Below are positions 1,450-13,839 of a DNA stretch of 64,000 bases, piece by piece (the first letter of the stretch is position 1; each line of letters opens with the position of its first letter). The stretch comes from Kovacikia minuta CCNUW1 (GTDB taxonomy: Bacteria; Cyanobacteriota; Cyanobacteriia; Leptolyngbyales; Leptolyngbyaceae). The notes beneath the pieces were generated by a model. The model was given only the letters and a program-made list of their open reading frames with translations, did not search any database and was not told the DNA's origin. Location of the stretch: the NCBI RefSeq assembly GCF_020091585.1, contig NZ_CP083582.1:1612001-1676000 (forward strand), in the 5' to 3' direction. A program made the translations under genes and the position numbers.

Positions 1450-3267
1450 CTAGGCGATCGTAGCCAGAGTGATATTCAATTTGTTTGTGATTGTTGCGAT
1501 CGTTTTCGCCTCCTCTGGCGTGACGACTCCATCTTGCTGCACGATTTTTTGGCATTGAGCCAGTAAGGGTACAGCAAAGTCACTGCTGATTTCGTTGAGT
1601 AGCGCTTCTAAAGAGGGCGGAGATTTTGCATTTGCTGCGATCACTTCTAGCGAAGCAGGGCTAAAGTTTAACGTTTGTACCTGTGGAAGAATTTGCTCCC
1701 AGGTTTTGCCCGGATGATTGGCTAGAACGACATAGACCAAAATTTGATCCATGATCACTTGTTGAGCGATCGCACCTTTCAAGAACTTTTCGCTTTCTGC
1801 TTGAGAAGCTTGGAAGGCAGATTGAGAGGTTGCAGGGTTCAGTTTTGCTTCATAGAACTGACAGGCTGCATATCCCAGAGCATAAAGCATGGCTGCATTA
1901 CTACTGGCACCAATCAGAGCCCCAGCAACAGGGATATTCCGCGCAAATCCTAAACCTGCCTTGAGGGCATAATTACCACCAAGGGCTAAGCCAAAAATTG
2001 CTAAAACTTCTCCTTTTCTAGCTGACTCATGGGGGTTCAGTCCATACACACAGGCAATTTGATAAACCATTTCTGCTTGTAATGCAGTAGTTGCTGCCAA
2101 ATCCACTGCAAGCATGGCAGTAGCAAACCCAGGCAGTAAACTGCTGGCAAATCCTGAACCTCCAACGTACAGAGCTTTTTCAACCATGACTCGATGGGCT
2201 ATTTCACCAGACTTTTCGTTGGGATATTTCCGCTGTAGATTTTTTACATGGGCTTCCGCTTGAACAACATCTACCTGGTCTACGATTTTGAGTAGCCAGT
2301 CTACTTTTAAGGCTTTTGTCAGATTTTGTAGCTGAGGGCTACTGCTAATCATGTCAAGTACATAGCCAGCCCCATCGGTTGATTGCAACACAGTATTACC
2401 AACGGCTCCAGCAGCTCCAGCGATCGCGCCACCAGCCTGTACAGTTGCGCCGCCAATAGCTCCGGCAGTTCCCGTGACTGTGCCAGCAACAGCACCACCC
2501 GCATAGGCGGCTGCACCCCCAACCGCTCCAGCGGCTCCTGCCACTGCCCCAAAAACGGAACCCCAGAAGGATGATTCTTGAGTTGGGGTTCTTTCGAGAT
2601 TGGATGCTTGAGAAGCTGTTTCAGCCACAAGTGGGGATGGTTCTACAGGAACCAGTGCAGTTGAGTTCGACTGTTTCTCCAGGTCAAAGTCTTGTTGCCA
2701 ATCTGGAAAATCATCCCCTGGTTCCCGTCCGCTGATTTTTACCTTGGTGCAGCCTTGAATTCCTAAGCTCCTTACTCTGTCGAGAATTAGAGGAACAACA
2801 ATTTGTTGATCTGGAACTCCGACTGCTTCCAGCATGACTCGTAAACAACCATCCTTCAGGCTCACTTTTACGGTCACACTTTGAGGGTTTAACCACTCAG
2901 CGATTAGCCTGCTGATCGCGTCGATATCTCCCTGCTTGGCAAGTTCTGTAAGGTCTGGTACTGTCTGCGCTGGAATTTCAAACTCCGTTTGCCAACTGGG
3001 GAAATCTTCCCCTACCTCCCGACCGAAAACCTTCACCTGTTTGACAGAAGTTGATTTTAGCCCCACAATCGCCTGACGGATCAATTCAACAGAGGCTTGC
3101 TGATCGGGTACCTGAACCGCCTCCAGCATGACTTTTAAGCAATCCGCTTTGAGGCTCACCTTGGCTGTGATGCCTTGAGGCTGAAAAGAATGGTTGATCA
3201 AACCTGCGATCGCGCTGGCATCACCTTGTTTTGCGAGTTCCAGAAAATTTGGCTGAGAAGCTGTCAT
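1450..3267 (-). CDS. Duplicated N-terminal domain, glycine-zipper, EcsC/TerB-like membrane protein
   Basis: A 605-residue protein with four visible parts. Residues about 7-97 and 104-195 are two copies of one domain: each begins with ELAKQGD, carries VSLK..CL.VMLEAV.VPDQQ and ends with G(R)E.G(E/D)DFP.WQ.(E/D)F. Residues about 235-300 are a glycine/alanine zipper (repeated GAVGGA, GAIAGAAGAVG) likely to insert in or lie on a membrane. Residues about 340-480 are a hydrophobic helical domain (GFASSLLPGFATA, NIPVAGALIGA) resembling EcsC or DUF697-type folds. The last 60 residues (VQQDGVVTPEEAKTIATI) resemble a TerB-like helical domain. Function unknown; a membrane-associated stress protein is a guess. 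Confidence 0.75.
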   Translation of the reverse strand: MTASQPNFLELAKQGDASAIAGLINHSFQPQGITAKVSLKADCLKVMLEAVQVPDQQASVELIRQAIVGLKSTSVKQVKVFGREVGEDFPSWQTEFEIPAQTVPDLTELAKQGDIDAISRLIAEWLNPQSVTVKVSLKDGCLRVMLEAVGVPDQQIVVPLILDRVRSLGIQGCTKVKISGREPGDDFPDWQQDFDLEKQSNSTALVPVEPSPLVAETASQASNLERTPTQESSFWGSVFGAVAGAAGAVGGAAAYAGGAVAGTVTGTAGAIGGATVQAGGAIAGAAGAVGNTVLQSTDGAGYVLDMISSSPQLQNLTKALKVDWLLKIVDQVDVVQAEAHVKNLQRKYPNEKSGEIAHRVMVEKALYVGGSGFASSLLPGFATAMLAVDLAATTALQAEMVYQIACVYGLNPHESARKGEVLAIFGLALGGNYALKAGLGFARNIPVAGALIGASSNAAMLYALGYAACQFYEAKLNPATSQSAFQASQAESEKFLKGAIAQQVIMDQILVYVVLANHPGKTWEQILPQVQTLNFSPASLEVIAANAKSPPSLEALLNEISSDFAVPLLAQCQKIVQQDGVVTPEEAKTIATITNKLNITLATIA

Positions 3268-3705: not shown

Positions 3706-5083
3706 GTTAGTGTCACGAATTTTTCGCCATTAGACAGAGAAAAAAGATTCAGTGACAGTAGAGGAACTCCATCGAGAGGGGAGCTTCCCATGACCATAGC
3801 CCAACGAGAACAACAAATCCATCGAGTCAAAGCCGTCAGTTTTCAACCTGAACTGGATGAGGCGTTAGAACAGGCCCTCAGAGAGGCCGTCATCAGTGCC
3901 GTCAAAATCACCTTGGAGAGCGCACTGAAAGAGGAACTCAAGGCAGAACTAGCCAAAATGGGAGACGATCGACCTCGACGTTCCGGGTATTTTCAACGGA
4001 GACTCGATACCCAGTATGGCCAGGTGAAGGATTTGCGAGTTCCGAAATTACGAGAACGCAACCCAGAACGAGAGTGGCAGATTCTCCAACGTTACCAACG
4101 GGGCTTAGGCAACCTGCTCAACTGGTTGTGTTGTTTGTATGTGATGGGACTGTCGTTGAGAGATTTGCAAGAGGCGCTATATTTTCTCATAGGACATGTG
4201 CTTTCCCGCAGTGCTGTGAACCAAGTCACCCTCCAGATTCAGCAACACTTAGACACTCGTCGCTTAGCCCCGATTGGCAAAACCCCTGCGATATTAATCG
4301 TCGATGGGGTGTGGGTAGAGATTCAATATACCCGAGAAGCGTTTAAGCTAGACCGGGCAGGACATCTGCGACAAAGTCGGCAGGCCGAAGAACGGGTAAT
4401 TTTGGCAGTTCTAGCCGTCTGGGAGGATGGGTCTTATGAAATCCTGCATTATGAGATTGCCTCCGACGAAGGAGAAGCAGAGTGGGAGGCCTTGTTTGAG
4501 CATTTAATCGCCCGAGGACTGCAAGCCGATGCGGTGAAATTAGTGGTCAGTGATGGCAGTTTGGGATTGCCCAAGGCGTTGAAAAAGACCTTGCCCCAGG
4601 CCCAACAGCAACGCTGTATCACGCACAAAATCCGAGGGATTGAGCGCTATTTGAGTTATGAGGATTTGCCGAAAACCGATGAGCAGGAACAACCCCTGAA
4701 GCGGGAAGATGCCAAACGGCAGCGTCGATTTGAAATTGCCTCTGAGGCTTATCAAATCTACAATGCAGAGACTTTGGAGCAGGCAAGGCAACGGTTAGAG
4801 CAATTCATCACCAAATGGGAAACACAAGAACCCAAAGCCATCCAAGTCTTTCAACGCGATCTAGAGTTGACCCTGACTTTCTATCAATTTGCACCAAACC
4901 TGCATCGGCATATTCGCACCACTAATCATTTGGAGCGGCTATTTCGAGAATTTCGCACCAAGTCAGATGAAATTGGGGCATTCCCGCATGAAACGAGTTG
5001 CCTCACTGTCTTTTTCCTCGTGATTGAGCGTGATCATGCCAAACATGACCGTAAAACCGTGGCGAAAAATTCGTGACACTAAC
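3706..5083 (+). mobile_element. Complete IS256-type insertion sequence
   Basis: A 1378-bp element bounded by perfect 24-bp inverted repeats (3706-3729 and 5060-5083, outer end GTTAGTGTCACGAATTTTTC). The same 7-bp sequence GGGATTG lies immediately outside both ends (3699-3705 and 5084-5090) and is read as the target duplication. It carries one intact transposase gene. Perfect ends, a clean duplication and an open transposase frame suggest recent insertion. IS256-family elements usually make 8-9 bp duplications, so the observed 7 bp is slightly short. Confidence 0.9.
3790..5076 (+). CDS. IS256-family (mutator type) transposase
   Basis: A 428-residue DDE transposase. The catalytic acids are visible as ILIVDGVWVE, LVVSDGSLGL and the Glu in TNHLERLFREFR, the last being the family signature; QQRCITHKIRGIERY lies between the second Asp and the Glu, as expected. 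The start is placed at ATG 3790; the open frame extends back to 3703 but that part is encoded by the terminal inverted repeat. Stop TGA lies in the right inverted repeat. The length fits the family (about 400-430 residues) and no frame damage is seen, so the enzyme may be active. Confidence 0.92.
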   Translation: MTIAQREQQIHRVKAVSFQPELDEALEQALREAVISAVKITLESALKEELKAELAKMGDDRPRRSGYFQRRLDTQYGQVKDLRVPKLRERNPEREWQILQRYQRGLGNLLNWLCCLYVMGLSLRDLQEALYFLIGHVLSRSAVNQVTLQIQQHLDTRRLAPIGKTPAILIVDGVWVEIQYTREAFKLDRAGHLRQSRQAEERVILAVLAVWEDGSYEILHYEIASDEGEAEWEALFEHLIARGLQADAVKLVVSDGSLGLPKALKKTLPQAQQQRCITHKIRGIERYLSYEDLPKTDEQEQPLKREDAKRQRRFEIASEAYQIYNAETLEQARQRLEQFITKWETQEPKAIQVFQRDLELTLTFYQFAPNLHRHIRTTNHLERLFREFRTKSDEIGAFPHETSCLTVFFLVIERDHAKHDRKTVAKNS

Positions 5084-5420: not shown

Positions 5421-7937
5421 ATGTCCAGGGTAGCGTTATTAATTGGGGTGAGCAGGTACCCACCGGGTTTGAACCCGCTACCAAAGGTTCAAAAAGATGT
5501 GGAGGTTTTGAGGCGCGTCCTGAAACGGCCAGAGTTTAAGTGTAAGCCTGTGGTATGCCTGAGCGATCGTCCCCTAACCGAGATGCAGGAGGCGATCGAA
5601 ACATTCTTCAAACAGTGCCATCCGGATGATCAGGTGATTTTTCTCTGGGCTGGCTACGTGTTTCAGGAAGCGGATGCTAGGCTTTATTTTGCGGCTCCAG
5701 AAACAAAACCAGATGAGCAGGGGAACCTGATCAAAGCCTTGAGTATTCCAGCCAGCTTTGTGCAGGAAGCCATGAACCGCAGCCCTGCCCAACAGCAGAT
5801 GTTGGTTTTGGACTGCCAGTTTCGCCAAACCTTTGATCATCCCCCCGCAACTGAAGCACCCGTTGATTTGCAAACCCAGTTAGGGGGCGATCAACGGGTA
5901 ATTTTAACCGCTTCTGCCTGGACGCATCATTTTACGGAACCAGAAGATTTAAATACCTGGAGCTATAGCCGCTACCTGGCAGACGGCATTGAAACAGGGG
6001 CGGCAGACATGGATAGCAACGGCGTTCTTACGCCTGAAGATCTGCACAATTATGTCAAACGGAAGCTAAAGGTTGCGGCTCCGGCAACGGATGCCCAAAT
6101 CTATGGTAACGAGGAGATTGCCAGATCTCCTTTCCTGGAGGTTGCTGTTCAGGATGCAGCCGTCTGCTATCGCAAAATCCTGGAAGACCTTGTGCAGCAC
6201 CAGGAAGCAGGAGCGATCGTGTCAACCTTTCTGGCCCATCGTAATTTTTTGGATGATATCAAACATGGACTGGGATTGCCCCCCAGGGAAGCAGCAGCCA
6301 TAGAGTTGCAAACGCTTCAGCCCGTGCGAGACTATCAGCAGCGGCGTCAGTCCTATGAAGAGAAAGTTTCGGGAACCCTGCTGGGTCAAGCTGTATCTAA
6401 TCCTCAGAACCGTCTACATTTAAAGCAGATCCAAAAAACACTTGGATTGACGGATAGTGATACGGCTGCGATCGACGCTGCCCCTTACGTAGTCGAACAA
6501 AAGATGCAGCGAGAACAGTATCAAAAAAATCTGGCGTCCTATGAGCAAATTTTGCTGGCAGCGATGCGGCGTCAATTTCCGCTGGCAGAGGGCGATCGAC
6601 ATGTGCTTCAGCGGCTAGAGCATGCACTTCAGCTTAAAACAGAAGATGTGCAAGCGGTTCAGACCCGCCTAACGGCACAGATGCAACGGTTGGGAGATGC
6701 GCCCACATCGCTGCCAGTATCCCAGATGGAAACGGAACCTCCTGTTGAGTTAGACCCCAATTCAACCAACCTGTGGGCAACTCCCCCAATAGACTCACGG
6801 AGACCTGCCGCCCAACCCAACTCTCCCCCCCCTCAGGTTGAGCAATTCCCCAAGGTTGAGCAACCCTCAAGAGACGACACGGTCCCCCCCCACCTGGTGA
6901 AACCAGTATCGTTTAGTTCCCCAGAGTCCCAAACGACGCCGGAGATATCAAACCGTCTGCCCGACATCGCCCCCCGGCCAAATGCACCGCCGCAACCGGA
7001 GGTGCCATCCCCTGGTTCACCCGCGCCCCCTGCCATGAGTCCCCCCACGAAAGCATCTGCTACCAAAACATCTGCCAGGTCATACACTGCCCTGATTATT
7101 CCGGGAGTTTTGCTGGCAGCGATCGTGGGCACACTGGCAGCGATGTGGTCCTCAGCAAATTTTCCGAAACTATTGGGTGGCGGCTCTCAACCGCAGCCCA
7201 ACCCAACCAACGCCCAACCGCCTTTACAACAAGCAACTAGCTACACCAAACTTGGAATCACTGCCCAGGGAATTGGGGATGCGGACGCTGCAATCCGGTA
7301 TTACAACGAGGCGATCGACCTCTTAAGTGAAAACTGTAAACAGCCTACCGATTCAACCACGAACGCTACCGCTGCTGCTGCTAATAATTCCTCGGCTGAA
7401 TGTCGGTTATTGGCACGGGCATACAACAATCGCAGCTACTCTCATTTCTGGCAAAAAGATTTTAGCCGAGCACGCAGTGATGCGGAACAAGCGCTTGCCC
7501 TCGAACCCAGTTTAGGTGAAGCGCGGATTAACCTGGCAAATGCTCGCTTTAAGCAGGGCGATCGGGCAGGAGCCATCAACGATTACGATCAGGCGATTCA
7601 GGCTAACCTCTCTAATACCCTAAAAGCCGGTGCCTACAACAACCGGGGCAATGTCCATTTTGCTGAAAATCGCCTTCAGGCTGCCATTCAAGACTATAAC
7701 CAGGCGATTAAGCTCAATCAAGAGTATGCTGACGCCTTCTTTAATCGGGGGCTTGCCTCTTCTAGTAGCAACCCGACCAGTGCAATCAATGATTTTCAGA
7801 CGGCTGCCAGGCTTTACCAGGGGAAACAAGACTTTAAGCAAGCTGACGAAGCGACTCGAAAAGCGACCGAACTTCAACAGAAACCCTCAAACCAAACCCC
7901 GCTCCCACCGACAGACAATGCGACACCGAAGGGATGA
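5421..7937 (+). CDS. Pseudo-orthocaspase (C14-like) with transmembrane segment and TPRs
   Basis: An 838-residue protein. Residues 1-250 have the caspase-haemoglobinase fold pattern: VALLIGV at the N-terminus, VIFLWAGYV at 72-80 where active enzymes have the S-G-H-G catalytic histidine, and LVLDCQFRQ at 128-136 where active enzymes have D-(C/S)-C-H-S-G. Both catalytic positions are changed: His to Tyr79 and Cys to Gln133, so proteolysis is unlikely. A Pro-rich linker (about 440-550) leads to one membrane helix (555-577, ALIIPGVLLAAIVG), then TPR units (606-820). The domain order suggests a membrane-anchored scaffold or decoy. Inactive orthocaspases are known in cyanobacteria; this YQ pair is what the sequence shows. 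Confidence 0.85.
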   Translation: MSRVALLIGVSRYPPGLNPLPKVQKDVEVLRRVLKRPEFKCKPVVCLSDRPLTEMQEAIETFFKQCHPDDQVIFLWAGYVFQEADARLYFAAPETKPDEQGNLIKALSIPASFVQEAMNRSPAQQQMLVLDCQFRQTFDHPPATEAPVDLQTQLGGDQRVILTASAWTHHFTEPEDLNTWSYSRYLADGIETGAADMDSNGVLTPEDLHNYVKRKLKVAAPATDAQIYGNEEIARSPFLEVAVQDAAVCYRKILEDLVQHQEAGAIVSTFLAHRNFLDDIKHGLGLPPREAAAIELQTLQPVRDYQQRRQSYEEKVSGTLLGQAVSNPQNRLHLKQIQKTLGLTDSDTAAIDAAPYVVEQKMQREQYQKNLASYEQILLAAMRRQFPLAEGDRHVLQRLEHALQLKTEDVQAVQTRLTAQMQRLGDAPTSLPVSQMETEPPVELDPNSTNLWATPPIDSRRPAAQPNSPPPQVEQFPKVEQPSRDDTVPPHLVKPVSFSSPESQTTPEISNRLPDIAPRPNAPPQPEVPSPGSPAPPAMSPPTKASATKTSARSYTALIIPGVLLAAIVGTLAAMWSSANFPKLLGGGSQPQPNPTNAQPPLQQATSYTKLGITAQGIGDADAAIRYYNEAIDLLSENCKQPTDSTTNATAAAANNSSAECRLLARAYNNRSYSHFWQKDFSRARSDAEQALALEPSLGEARINLANARFKQGDRAGAINDYDQAIQANLSNTLKAGAYNNRGNVHFAENRLQAAIQDYNQAIKLNQEYADAFFNRGLASSSSNPTSAINDFQTAARLYQGKQDFKQADEATRKATELQQKPSNQTPLPPTDNATPKG

Positions 7938-8022: not shown

Positions 8023-9048
8023 CTAACTCCTATATGCCAGCGCAAACCGCTCAATTCCAGCCAGGTCAGGAAAGATTTGGATCGGGTAATAGCTACCCTG
8101 TTGTTGCAACAGTTGGGTAACGGAACTTGCCTGTCCTGCCATCATTTCGAACAGGAGAATGCCATCGGCATGGAGGTAGGCGGGAGCAGTTGCAACCAGG
8201 TGGCGAATGGCATCCAGTCCATCGGGTCCGCCATTCAACGCCAGGTGAGGCTCATGCCGAGTGACTTCCGGTTGCAGTTCTAATACCAATTGGCTGGGAA
8301 TGTAGGGAGGGTTCGATATAATGCAGCTGAGTTTGCCTTTGAGGTGTTCCAGGGGTTGTAACCAGGAACCCTGGTAGAACTGAATGCGATGTTCCAACTG
8401 ATACGTTCTCGCATTTGCCCTGGCGATCGCCAGTGCCTCTGGGCTGCAATCCACAGCATGTATCACTGCTTCAGGAAATGCGGTTGCCAATCCCAGGGCG
8501 ATCGCGCCGCTGCCGGTGCCGAGATCTGCCCAATGCCCACTTGATAGGGGAGTGGGGAGTGGGGAGTGGGACGTGGGGGAAGAGGTCTGAATTTTGAATT
8601 TTGAAGTTTGAACTCCTTCCTGGCTTCTGGCTTCTGCCTTCTCCACTGCCGCGATCGCCAGATCAATCAAACATTCCGTCTCTGGCCGGGGAATGAGCAC
8701 TGCGGGAGCCACTTTGAGGCAAAACTGTCGCCAGGGAGCAATCCCTGTTAGATACTGGACGGGAATGCGCTCGTTTAGGCGTCGTTGCCAGAGGCTTTTC
8801 AATTCCCAAAAGGGGTGTTTCAGGGGAATGGTTGCCCGATCGCGAAATGATTCCAGCCGTAGTGACAGCCGATCCAGTCCGGCAAGTTCTTGCAAAAACC
8901 AATCGATTTCCTGAGGGGGGATATGGGCAGCGATCGCCTCAGACTGCGCCGCCTTACGCCACTCCCATAATTCTTGTCCTGCAACAGAAAACTCCCGCCT
9001 CAGAACTTGAGACGAGAGCTGATTAAAGGGAATATTAGCGTCAGACAT
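8023..9048 (-). CDS. prmC: Peptide chain release factor N5-glutamine methyltransferase
   Basis: PrmC (HemK) methylates the GGQ glutamine of release factors using S-adenosylmethionine. The helical N-terminal domain is followed by the PVQYLTG segment (97-102), the AdoMet loop ADLGTGSGAIAL (174-185) and the catalytic NPPY at 246-249. At 341 residues it is about 35 longer than usual: residues 138-171 (EARSQEGVQTSKFKIQTSSP onward) are encoded by STRR sequence at 8540-8640, inserted just before the AdoMet loop without breaking the frame. The ATG follows directly on a run of GGATAAAGGAT repeats, so the leader itself is repeat-derived. Confidence 0.93.
   Translation of the reverse strand: MSDANIPFNQLSSQVLRREFSVAGQELWEWRKAAQSEAIAAHIPPQEIDWFLQELAGLDRLSLRLESFRDRATIPLKHPFWELKSLWQRRLNERIPVQYLTGIAPWRQFCLKVAPAVLIPRPETECLIDLAIAAVEKAEARSQEGVQTSKFKIQTSSPTSHSPLPTPLSSGHWADLGTGSGAIALGLATAFPEAVIHAVDCSPEALAIARANARTYQLEHRIQFYQGSWLQPLEHLKGKLSCIISNPPYIPSQLVLELQPEVTRHEPHLALNGGPDGLDAIRHLVATAPAYLHADGILLFEMMAGQASSVTQLLQQQGSYYPIQIFPDLAGIERFALAYRS
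8540..8645. repeat. STRR array inside prmC
   Basis: GGGGAGTGGGGAGTGGGGAGT followed by AATTTTGAATTTTGAA and CTGGCTTCTGGCTTCTGCC lies within the coding sequence. It keeps the frame and encodes a low-complexity surface loop. Confidence 0.85.
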
Positions 9049-9241: not shown

Positions 9242-10061
9242 CTACTTCTTGGGTGCCGCAGGTGCGGGTTTGTTTGCAGGTGCGGTGGACGCAGGTTTGG
9301 GCTGGTTACCCGGTTGCTTACTACCCCCTAGAGATTGGACATAGGTAATCGCCTCCTGGGAGGGAACCAGCATCACCTGATTCAGTTGGGGATCGTTCTT
9401 GGTACGCAACACTTCAATTAAACCCTCCAGGTTCAACACCTGGATCTCAATGGTGGAAGCCATATTGGGTTGCTGTTGCTTGAACTTATCCACCAGTGCT
9501 TGCAATTCCTCTTTCTTGAAAAACATCGGAATCACAGACTGGTTGCCCTGTTGAATGGTTAGATAACCTTTTTCCTTGCCACCCTTTGCCACAAACAGGG
9601 GCGTTCCGTTAGAAATTCTGAACCTGCTGACCGCTTTTCTTCAACAGATCCACGGCAATTCCCACTTCCTGCTTAGAGGGGACAAAGGCAAATCCTAGAC
9701 CTTCGGGTTTATCCTTATTGGACTGTTGAAGTTGGTAAACTTCTGCGAGAGAAACGGGTACAACGGTAACCCCTTTTGCCAATTCAGGGTTTTTGGTTTT
9801 TAGCGTTTCTAAAAATGCCTGGGCATCTTTTTGGCTAATGAAGACGCCTGCAACCGCTGGTCCCTTTTGACCTTGAGGTGGAGATGCGACCAGGGGTGCA
9901 CCTTGAGCGTTCGCGATCGTAAACACGGGGACTGAACGCAACTTCTGGAGAATCTGATCTTGTGGGAGCGCAAGCGCTTGTAGTGCACCCGTCAGAACTG
10001 ACCCCATCAGGACACTTCCGACCAGACCAACCGTTGTACTCCAGCGAATCAATGATTTCAT
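9242..10061 (-). pseudogene. Tic22-like exported protein gene with a one-base frameshift
   Basis: Two abutting frames make one Tic22-family protein of about 272 residues. The first part starts at ATG 10061 (GGAGCAGTC upstream) with a signal peptide (LVGSVLMGSVLTGALQALA) and ends early at TAA 9609-9611. The second frame continues with NGTPLFVAKGGKEKGYL and ends in a Pro/Ala/Lys-rich tail. Dropping one T of the TTT at 9613-9615 (minus strand) restores a continuous frame. Cyanobacterial Tic22 proteins are periplasmic chaperone-like factors for outer-membrane biogenesis and are often essential, which argues for a sequence error rather than a true loss. Confidence 0.8.
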
Positions 10062-10082
10062 GACTGCTCCTGGCATTGACAC

Positions 10083-11982: not shown

Positions 11983-13839
11983 TTAATAACCGAGCTGTGC
12001 CTTAGCCTGTTCTCGGAGGGCACGGGCATTAACCGCATTCGGTTGAATCTGTAAGGCCTTATCCAGAGAATTCACCGCGGCGTCAAAGCGTCCCAAATTC
12101 CACAAGGCAGCCCCTTTGGTACTCCAGGCTTCAGCCGAATTGCGGTTGAGTGCAATCGCCTGATCCAGGGCTTCAATTGCCTCCACCGATCGCCCGACTT
12201 CCTGAAGTGCCATTCCCCGGTCCACCCAGGCATCAAAAAAATTGGGTTTAAGCGCGGTTGCCTGCTCGAATAAATTCAGCGCTTCAATGATGCGTTGTTG
12301 CTGCTTAAGCGCTTTCCCCTTACTCCAGAGGGCTTCGGAATAATCCGGGTTCAGATCGAGCGCATCATTACAAGCGACGATCGCCGCGCTGGGCTGGTTC
12401 AAGGACACTAAACTGTCACACCGTCCCCAGTAAGCTTGAGCCATATTCGGCTTCAGATTAATCACCTGATCATAAAGCGCCAGTGCTTGCTTATATTGCC
12501 GCTGCTGCCGTAGTTGATTAGCCTGGTCCAAAAGGCTGCCAGGTTGATTAGCCACAGCAGGCTGAGGAGAAGCCAAAGGTAAACTCTTAGAGCCGGTTAA
12601 GCCGCTAACCGCTGAACTGAAAGGGGTGAAGGTGCTAATCGGTTGAAGGGTACCCCATTTAACTGACAGCAGCGCTACCCCTGCAACTGCCAACCCAGTC
12701 AGAATGGCGACCCGCCTGGATACGAGTTTTTCCAGTCCTTCTTTCAGATCCCCTAAAAGGGCTGGAGTGGTCAGTTGCTGGGAATCATGGAATTGCTCGG
12801 AAGGAACGATCGACAAATCGCTTCCATCTAGCGTCAAAGTCTCATCTTGAGTATCGGTTGGAGCAAACATCCTAACGCCATCCCTCTCCATTTCCGATGT
12901 CACCTGTTCCGGTTCAGTGGCTTCCAGACGAGCAGGTGAGAGCAGCGTAATTGCCTCCGCAAGGGGTTGGGCTTCTGGTTCAATAATTTTTGTTGATAAA
13001 TTTTGCAAAGCTTCCAGAGCTTCCCCCGCAGCCTGAAAGCGATCGCGGAAGTCGTAGCACACCATACCATCCAGGATGGTTGCCAGTTCAGAACTCACTG
13101 TAGGTGCATGCATGCGCCAGTCAATTTCGCCGGTCTGGTCATCATCCTCCAGGTCTGTGGCAGATACTCCCGTCAAGGCCTGAATCCCTACCAGCCCAAC
13201 CGCGTAAACATCACTACAATAACGGGGCTTCCCAGCTAATTGTTCATTTGGGACGTAGCCCTGGGTGCCAATCGCGATCGTTAAATCGGATTTTGTATCC
13301 GTGGCAGTGCTCTGGATTGTGACCTGCTTGACCGCCCCAAAATCAATCAAAACCAACTTTCCATCCCGACGGCGGCGGATTAAATTAGAAGGTTTGATGT
13401 CCCGGTGAATGACTTGTTGTTGGTGGACAAACTCAAGAATTTGCAAGATATCCCGTAACAGCAAAACGACCCGATCCTCAGACCAGGGCTTCCCCTTAAC
13501 AATCTGCCGTGTCAGCGATTCCCCTTCAACAAACTCTTGAACCAAATAAAATTCTTGATTTTCCTCAAAGTGGGCAAACAGTGACGGAATCTGACTATGT
13601 TTGCCCAATTGGTAAAGCACCTTGGCTTCCGTATTAAACAGCCGCCTGGCTGTTTGTAAATGTTTGGTGTTGCTTGCCCGCCCCAGCAGACGCTTGACGA
13701 CACAGCGGGGACGATCGGGCAAGTGCAGGTCCTGTGCCAGAAATGTTTGACCAAACCCACCCACTCCTAGCTGACTAATCAGTTTGTACCGTTTACCCAC
13801 AACAGAGTCAGGATTGTCCTGTTGAGATTGATAACTCAT
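11983..13839 (-). CDS. Serine/threonine protein kinase with membrane helix and TPR domain
   Basis: A 618-residue Hanks-type kinase. The glycine-rich loop GVGGFGQTF, the ATP lysine in CVVKRL, the catalytic loop HRDIKPSNLI and the metal loop IDFGAVKQ are all present, so it should be active. After a linker (about 285-365), one membrane helix (VAILTGLAVAGVALLSV) leads to about five TPR units (from about 430 to the end), each with the A..YW/LW pattern. The kinase is predicted cytosolic and the TPRs on the other side of the membrane, where they could bind a ligand protein. It is convergent with the preceding binding-protein gene. Confidence 0.93.
   Translation of the reverse strand: MSYQSQQDNPDSVVGKRYKLISQLGVGGFGQTFLAQDLHLPDRPRCVVKRLLGRASNTKHLQTARRLFNTEAKVLYQLGKHSQIPSLFAHFEENQEFYLVQEFVEGESLTRQIVKGKPWSEDRVVLLLRDILQILEFVHQQQVIHRDIKPSNLIRRRRDGKLVLIDFGAVKQVTIQSTATDTKSDLTIAIGTQGYVPNEQLAGKPRYCSDVYAVGLVGIQALTGVSATDLEDDDQTGEIDWRMHAPTVSSELATILDGMVCYDFRDRFQAAGEALEALQNLSTKIIEPEAQPLAEAITLLSPARLEATEPEQVTSEMERDGVRMFAPTDTQDETLTLDGSDLSIVPSEQFHDSQQLTTPALLGDLKEGLEKLVSRRVAILTGLAVAGVALLSVKWGTLQPISTFTPFSSAVSGLTGSKSLPLASPQPAVANQPGSLLDQANQLRQQRQYKQALALYDQVINLKPNMAQAYWGRCDSLVSLNQPSAAIVACNDALDLNPDYSEALWSKGKALKQQQRIIEALNLFEQATALKPNFFDAWVDRGMALQEVGRSVEAIEALDQAIALNRNSAEAWSTKGAALWNLGRFDAAVNSLDKALQIQPNAVNARALREQAKAQLGY

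Follow-up and report, generated by a model that had tools for sequence, protein, structure and literature searches.

A Tyr-Gln pseudo-orthocaspase with a predicted membrane helix and TPRs belongs to a small conserved cyanobacterial lineage of variable dyad

Pseudo-orthocaspases are common in cyanobacteria. The locus analysed here, from Kovacikia minuta CCNUW1, encodes a protein of this kind, possessing both a C14/p20 domain and a substituted His-Cys dyad, and raises the question of what an orthocaspase that has exchanged both catalytic residues is kept for. Is the gene decaying, does its product still cut by other means, or has cutting given way to another role? The gene was examined in a window of 64,000 nucleotides (bases 1612001-1676000 of contig 1, in a genome of 8.56 Mb), and its parts and key residues are collected in Table 1.

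Table 1 Coordinates of the pseudo-orthocaspase gene, its domains and residues, and the adjacent marker gene. Positions are those of the window; fractions refer to the 18 orthologues described in the text.
Feature	Position	Strand	Evidence and remarks
Pseudo-orthocaspase-TM-TPR protein	5421..7937	+	Single intact ORF, 838 aa; ATG at 5421, stop ends at 7937
Caspase (p20-type) domain, residues 1-241	5421..6143	+	PF00656; model match to MALT1
Asp26, putative counterpart of first acidic pocket residue (TbMC2 Asp95)	5496..5498	+	Asp 9/18, Asn 7/18, Gly 2/18
Tyr79, catalytic His column	5655..5657 (TAC)	+	Alignments; Tyr 16/18, His 2/18
Asp131, putative counterpart of second acidic pocket residue (TbMC2 Asp211)	5811..5813	+	Asp 15/18, Asn 3/18
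Gln133, catalytic Cys column	5817..5819 (CAG)	+	Alignments; Tyr 7, Cys 6, Ile 2, Gln 1, His 1, Ser 1 of 18
Helical region, residues 246-425	6156..6695	+	Helices in model; gene break of split orthologues falls inside
Proline-rich linker, residues 426-552, weakly conserved	6696..7076	+	Alignment; dN/dS 0.20 and 0.43 (two pairs)
Predicted transmembrane helix, residues 557-575	7089..7145	+	Hydropathy 2.36
TPR domain, listed matches between residues 649 and 820	7365..7880	+	TPR_1 72.5 bits, other TPR models
prmC (HemK-type release-factor methyltransferase), convergent	8023..9048	-	TIGR03534 216 bits; marks the orthologous locus

The Pfam model Peptidase_C14 (PF00656) matched residues 3 to 216 of the protein, scoring 34.9 bits where 21.4 is the cut-off. 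An AlphaFold2 model of residues 1 to 430, computed from an 11-sequence alignment, had a mean pLDDT of 88.6 and a pTM of 0.80. Comparison of its residues 1 to 241 with solved structures revealed MALT1 (residues 341-563) as the best match (Z 21.2, 191 residues aligned, 2.5 A, 16-17% identity), followed by Arabidopsis metacaspase 4 (Z 20.5) and caspases 6 and 7; the comparison yields residue ranges rather than a residue-to-residue superposition on a solved dyad. Foldseek likewise placed MALT1 on top. The Pfam match and the structural match each span the entire caspase fold; the predicted structure agrees with the preliminary description, which had proposed that this fold is kept. Sequence searches of the solved structures, with a clade profile or with a His-Cys paralogue, returned only short, weak matches to non-caspase proteins (ubiquilin, E 0.002; ParD antitoxin, E 0.003). 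Likeness of fold says nothing about function.

Alignment with 15 His-Cys orthocaspases placed Tyr79 and Gln133 on the catalytic His and Cys columns, and a test within the same genome placed both on the dyad columns of ten His-Cys paralogues. The genome encodes 12 C14 domains, namely these ten, one Tyr-Ser protein (L007) and the Tyr-Gln protein of the window. Misplacement of the dyad was ruled out by three alignments. Nearby residues were also considered as the true catalytic pair: Cys132 corresponds to the residue preceding the nucleophile (in a DCC/DSC/DAC motif) and is Cys in just 11 of the 18 orthologues; His67, the closest His ahead of Tyr79, lies 12 residues off; and His169/170 lie beyond the next strand and show no conservation in a 10-row alignment. 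With no nearby His or Cys on the dyad columns, the earlier claim of an orthocaspase in which both catalytic residues are replaced is borne out by the domain match, the alignments and the modelled fold.

The pair of substitutions had also been thought worth recording, a claim that carries little weight, as the Tyr-Gln pair is already known: Y-Q stands among the pseudo-orthocaspase dyads in the accessible parts of PMC8283722 and PMC7889975, the latter also listing Y-C, Y-Y and Y-H. In the available portions of PMC3501461 and PMC7475262, Tyr is given as the commonest replacement of His at the dyad column. Moreover, the pair tells little by itself, because the second residue varies between genera within one lineage. 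That lineage pattern is the new part: our searches of the open literature, in which the papers cited here were consulted in their main text, turned up no account of the clade, whether fused or split.

The search covered 58 relatives, the family and the order (the same 42 genomes) and 388 class genomes selected out of a larger group. Orthologues numbered 18, every one in the window's own family (18 of the 42 genomes), plus a broken copy in genome G008. At E 1e-66, a threshold that would miss more divergent members, with L039 as a candidate (E 2.5e-47 in the search of the relatives), the whole protein matched 21 of the 388 class genomes: the 18 of the clade and three others (G020, G333 and G374), whose matches are of the His-Cys type. 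With the two dyad columns left out of the tree, the 18 orthologues formed a single clade with support of 100/100, apart from the 15 His-Cys and two odd-dyad orthocaspases. The 15 were drawn from the best matches of the query and are thus biased towards near relatives; L001, L007 and L011 were removed as too distant, and L039 and L042 stand in this tree outside the set of 15. A second tree, comprising seven of the outside rows and 11 paralogues from the window's own genome, kept the clade (100/98) among its nearest His-Cys relatives. The broken Tyr-Cys copy of G008 was absent from both trees. This nineteenth relative (L098, G008 contig 108, about positions 92-1354) has a frame change that breaks the caspase domain, either an assembly error or a pseudogene.

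Restriction to the family is true of the 18 as found and not of the architecture, since a protein from another family of the class shares the order of parts. This protein, L039 (L039:1453-3753, genome G054), is a His-Tyr orthocaspase of 767 residues on a very long branch; by eye it possesses a caspase domain, a helical region, a Ser/Pro-rich linker, a hydrophobic stretch around residue 582 and a C-terminus resembling TPRs. It falls outside the clade on the tree, and its constraint inside the clade was not rejected (AU p 0.41). Its identity is 36-42% to its best-matching general orthocaspases versus 27-28% to members of the clade. A search of the 388 genomes with L039 at E 1e-45 matched 105 genomes, the top 20 besides itself being other orthocaspases, matched over about 345-410 residues, with the clade members ranking below them. 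On these sequence comparisons L039 would be either a distant member of the lineage or a convergent case. A further protein, the Arg-Gly orthocaspase L042 in an open frame of 1242 residues (genome G057), also sits on a long branch, and its placement with the clade was not rejected (AU p 0.10).

Within the 18 orthologues the dyad is Tyr-Cys in six, Tyr-Tyr in five, His-Tyr in two and Tyr-Ile in two, with one each of Tyr-His, Tyr-Ser and the Tyr-Gln of the window. On the 35-row tree, with the outside rows counted, the His column requires a minimum of four changes and the Cys column eight. As a reference we took the 64 columns conserved at 93% or more among the 15 His-Cys proteins. An entropy ranking of these within the clade, from most to least variable, puts the nucleophile column 7th and the Tyr79 column 46th; 21 of the 64 are retained in under half of the 18. 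Ser135 and Gly136, which follow the nucleophile, are retained in none, and Gly80 in eight. Losses affected 9 of 15 columns near the active site versus 12 of 49 elsewhere (Fisher p 0.025), an enrichment to which we give no weight, the stretches having been picked after viewing the data. The drift of the dyad and the retention of columns thus indicate that the catalytic machinery is broadly eroded while Tyr79 is held. Inactivity of the whole clade is nevertheless not certain, because the six Tyr-Cys orthologues retain Cys at the nucleophile column.

These six, together with the strong conservation of Tyr79 and the presence of Cys132 beside the dead position, are what could speak for a protein that still cuts through other residues, for example with Cys132 as the nucleophile or by a Tyr-assisted mechanism. 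Against such a protease stand the incomplete conservation of Cys132 and the wide loss of the surroundings of the active site. No C14 protease is known to us that dispenses with the His, and we consider continued proteolysis by this route very improbable.

A gene decaying after loss of function would fit the freely varying nucleophile column, and the G008 relative with its broken caspase-domain frame could be taken as an instance. However, the frames are open in all 18 orthologues, two of which are truncated where their contigs end, and conservation extends to Tyr79 and many further columns. Furthermore, dN/dS ratios (Nei-Gojobori) were below 0.45 for all domains and all pairs with unsaturated dS. 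The caspase domain gave 0.06, 0.03, 0.26, 0.18 and 0.12 in five pairs, with dS near 1.5 in two of them; the membrane helix plus TPRs gave 0.12 in each of the two measurable pairs, and the linker was looser (Table 1). For the window protein's own closest pair the synonymous sites were saturated. Synteny also speaks against decay: downstream of the gene in the window are prmC, in convergent orientation, and a Tic22-like gene, an arrangement that recurs at 7 of the 17 other orthologues (G003, G010, G019, G025, G032, G062 and G063), and the contig ends on the downstream side of the orthologue in G015, G030 and G064. We therefore regard decay as extremely improbable. With 17 other orthologues in open frames and low dN/dS in the measurable pairs, the pattern is more than chance, and the gene, as judged from these substitution patterns, is retained for some function.

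Several features of the neighbourhood were recorded. An IS256-family transposase in an open frame (about 3707-5082) lies some 340 bases upstream of the caspase gene; the element is bounded by inverted repeats that match perfectly over 16 consecutive bases and is not part of the caspase system. The Tic22-like gene (9242-10082, minus strand) is present in two frames, with the N-terminal half at 9609-10082 and the C-terminal half at 9242-9592; it is one open frame in all seven relatives checked, and the split in the window is a real frameshift or a sequencing error. Further along, a gene on the minus strand (11983-13839) encodes a Ser/Thr kinase and TPRs, with an intervening hydrophobic stretch visible by eye, and so matches the pseudo-caspase in the order of its parts. 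Kinase stretches with 39-41% identity occur near the split operon in G017 and G027; the resemblance may be fortuitous, as kinases of this type are common. On the other side, a protein of 605 residues (1450-3267, minus strand) contains, by eye, a pair of similar segments at its N-terminal end, and its EcsC-like part scores slightly below the Pfam cut-off.

If the gene is kept, the parts to which the caspase domain is joined may indicate for what. The preliminary description had placed a membrane helix and TPRs downstream, and both were recovered, by hydropathy and by TPR model matches respectively. The helix is the sole hydropathy peak above 1.6 in the protein, and a peak of at least 2.36 occurs at the equivalent place in all 11 fused orthologues. 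The parent group does not generally share this membrane form, since a peak above 1.9 past residue 250 was found in just 2 of the 15 His-Cys relatives, one of them at the extreme C-terminus. The His-Cys relative L003, from the window's own genome, also has a transmembrane segment after the helical region. Elsewhere in the window's own genome (G000), a stretch at C1:4380884-4381072 is 76% identical to residues 357-420 with one in-frame stop, a partial copy of the helical region.

The caspase and TM-TPR parts lie in one open reading frame in 11 of the 18 genomes (cut by contig ends at the start in G063 and at the end in G064) and in two overlapping genes in the other seven, by 4 nt in four genomes, 11 nt in one and 14 nt in two. 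In all seven the first gene is 325-335 codons long, and one split orthologue, that of G010, shares the prmC/Tic22-like neighbourhood. That the parts are fused in some genomes and encoded by overlapping genes in others is good evidence for their joint action. Lys and Arg residues flanking the helix are more numerous on the N side than on the C side in 10 of the 11 fused orthologues and equal in one; with counts of 2-3 versus 1-2, this is a weak signal of orientation, which would place the N-terminal part in the cytoplasm.

On this basis (the modelled fold, the loss of both catalytic residues, the membrane helix and TPRs, the conservation of the gene and its fused or overlapping arrangement), we propose a membrane-anchored pseudo-orthocaspase, in which a cytoplasmic dead caspase domain is coupled to exported TPRs and binds rather than cuts; our confidence in this mechanism is evenly balanced. 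The caspase domain and its helical extension would lie in the cytoplasm, and a flexible proline-rich linker would lead to the single membrane helix. The TPRs would bind a protein on the far side of the membrane, in the periplasm or the thylakoid lumen. The caspase domain would perform no proteolysis and would have kept binding as its function, either signalling the TPR side's state to a partner in the cytoplasm or just holding partners together at the membrane. It counts against the proposal that these genomes encode many TPR proteins and that a TPR may have any binding target. The earlier suggestion of a membrane scaffold built on a dead protease was a reasonable guess; the order of parts would suit a membrane-spanning receptor or adaptor equally.

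Among animal proteins, MALT1 is an active protease, and c-FLIP_L is a dead caspase domain that serves as a regulator. By analogy, the domain studied here might pair with active orthocaspases of the same cell, blocking or tuning them at the membrane. No Ig or death domain is listed in the window protein; the inactive caspase of c-FLIP is mentioned in PMC8195603. Candidate partners exist in the ten His-Cys paralogues, the nearest of which (L002 and L003) are 34-36% identical in alignments that span the caspase domain and run into the first part of the helical region. Dominant-negative or peptide-binding roles have been proposed for inactive caspases in PMC7159879, which, in the part available, reports about 70% of effector-position caspase domains to be inactive in one class of bacterial conflict systems. 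However, a close active partner is not always present: 6 of the 18 genomes (G010, G015, G016, G017, G022 and G026) have no caspase over the NF047832 cut-off, which the nearest His-Cys relatives pass, and their completeness is 95-100% (four drafts at 99-100%, one single-contig genome and one at 95%). Weaker caspase matches of 96-103 bits, identified by score and whatever their dyads, occur in all six. A caspase over the cut-off, counted irrespective of its dyad, is present in 11 of the 18 (as a partial domain only in G003 and G063), and G019 falls just below. Regulation by pairing is possible in the window species; as the explanation of the protein we think it unlikely.

A different possibility is that the retained acidic pocket traps basic peptides or protein tails without cutting them. 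Asp26 and Asp131, the putative pocket residues, are both retained in the window protein, an equivalence that is our reading of PMC6426788, from its accessible text and not from a residue-level structural alignment; there, conserved acidic pockets are described in YS and YN pseudo-orthocaspases. Against this, the first Asp is present in only half of the orthologues (Table 1), so that a pocket trap cannot be the role of the whole clade. It, too, is possible in the window species, and we give it little credence.

The proposed membrane-anchored binding protein can be set beside known groups. In the accessible text of PMC6426788, YS and YN clades are described, other substitutions being called scattered; these clades, like Synechocystis SyOC (Tyr-Gly; PMC7889975, in part), share with the window protein a p20 domain, the His to Tyr change, a substituted Cys and presumed inactivity. 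The YS and YN proteins are reported there without further identifiable domains, whereas the window protein adds a helical region, a membrane helix and TPRs, and whereas YS and YN are named by their commonest dyad (YN being known to us by description only), the dyad varies within the clade described here. The Tyr-Ser protein of the window's genome, L007 (G000:C1:1207288-1208076), groups with its His-Cys sister L006 (C1:3109654-3110463), with which it is 45% identical. Constraint of L007, the sole YS protein used, into one clade with the window lineage was rejected (AU p 8.8e-6), and with it, for that one protein, membership of the YS clade. Thus, as judged from the trees, this genome most likely holds two pseudo-orthocaspases whose dyads were lost in separate events. 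The N-terminal stretch of L007 is Tat-like by eye.

EACC1-associated caspases (NF047832; System 4 of PMC7159879) are the best NCBIfam match of the caspase domain of the window protein, at 103 bits. In the part of PMC7159879 available these have variable C-terminal domains, some with transmembrane segments, and on the tree the window clade lies among such caspases. The window protein differs in scoring below the NF047832 cut-off of 140 and in having lost the catalytic residues; three His-Cys relatives reach 166-182 bits. The whole genome gave no match to PF19953, the EACC1 gene, at E 0.01, the neighbours of the caspase gene being the IS256 element and prmC. Membership of the NF047832 family and of the EACC1 two-gene system was rejected. 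PADLOC returned just its general caspase model, at 28 bits, and the gene was not called a defence gene. Alphaproteobacterial FS pseudo-orthocaspases, as described in the accessible part of PMC6426788, resemble the window protein in carrying TPRs after a dead p20 domain and differ in dyad and phylum, the likeness being one of description only. PMC8283722, in its available portion, counts 37 pseudo-orthocaspases with transmembrane segments and, among pseudo-orthocaspases, one with TPR_1 and one with TPR_16. A pseudo-orthocaspase of this build is ordinary in kind; the lineage pattern is new and of modest import.

The window protein seems to be a member of a small conserved lineage in which cutting was traded for binding or signalling. 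The drift of the nucleophile against a nearly fixed Tyr, together with the fusion to a TM-TPR part, suggests that the retained function would sit on the Tyr79 side and in the TM-TPR partner rather than at the Cys site. Tentatively, and while ourselves leaning somewhat against it, we put forward a third lineage of pseudo-orthocaspases, defined by architecture and descent and not by dyad, in which, after an ancestral His to Tyr change, the nucleophile column would have been released to drift and Tyr79 would have been selected in a new, non-proteolytic binding site of a two-part membrane receptor, fused or overlapping. If this is true, some of the odd cyanobacterial dyads regarded as scattered (such as YQ, YH, YY and YC) would be members of this single lineage. 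The clade itself offers a natural experiment, in which six residues have occupied the nucleophile position while the Tyr partner and the fold stay, and the partner domain identified through gene fusion gives a concrete complex for testing.
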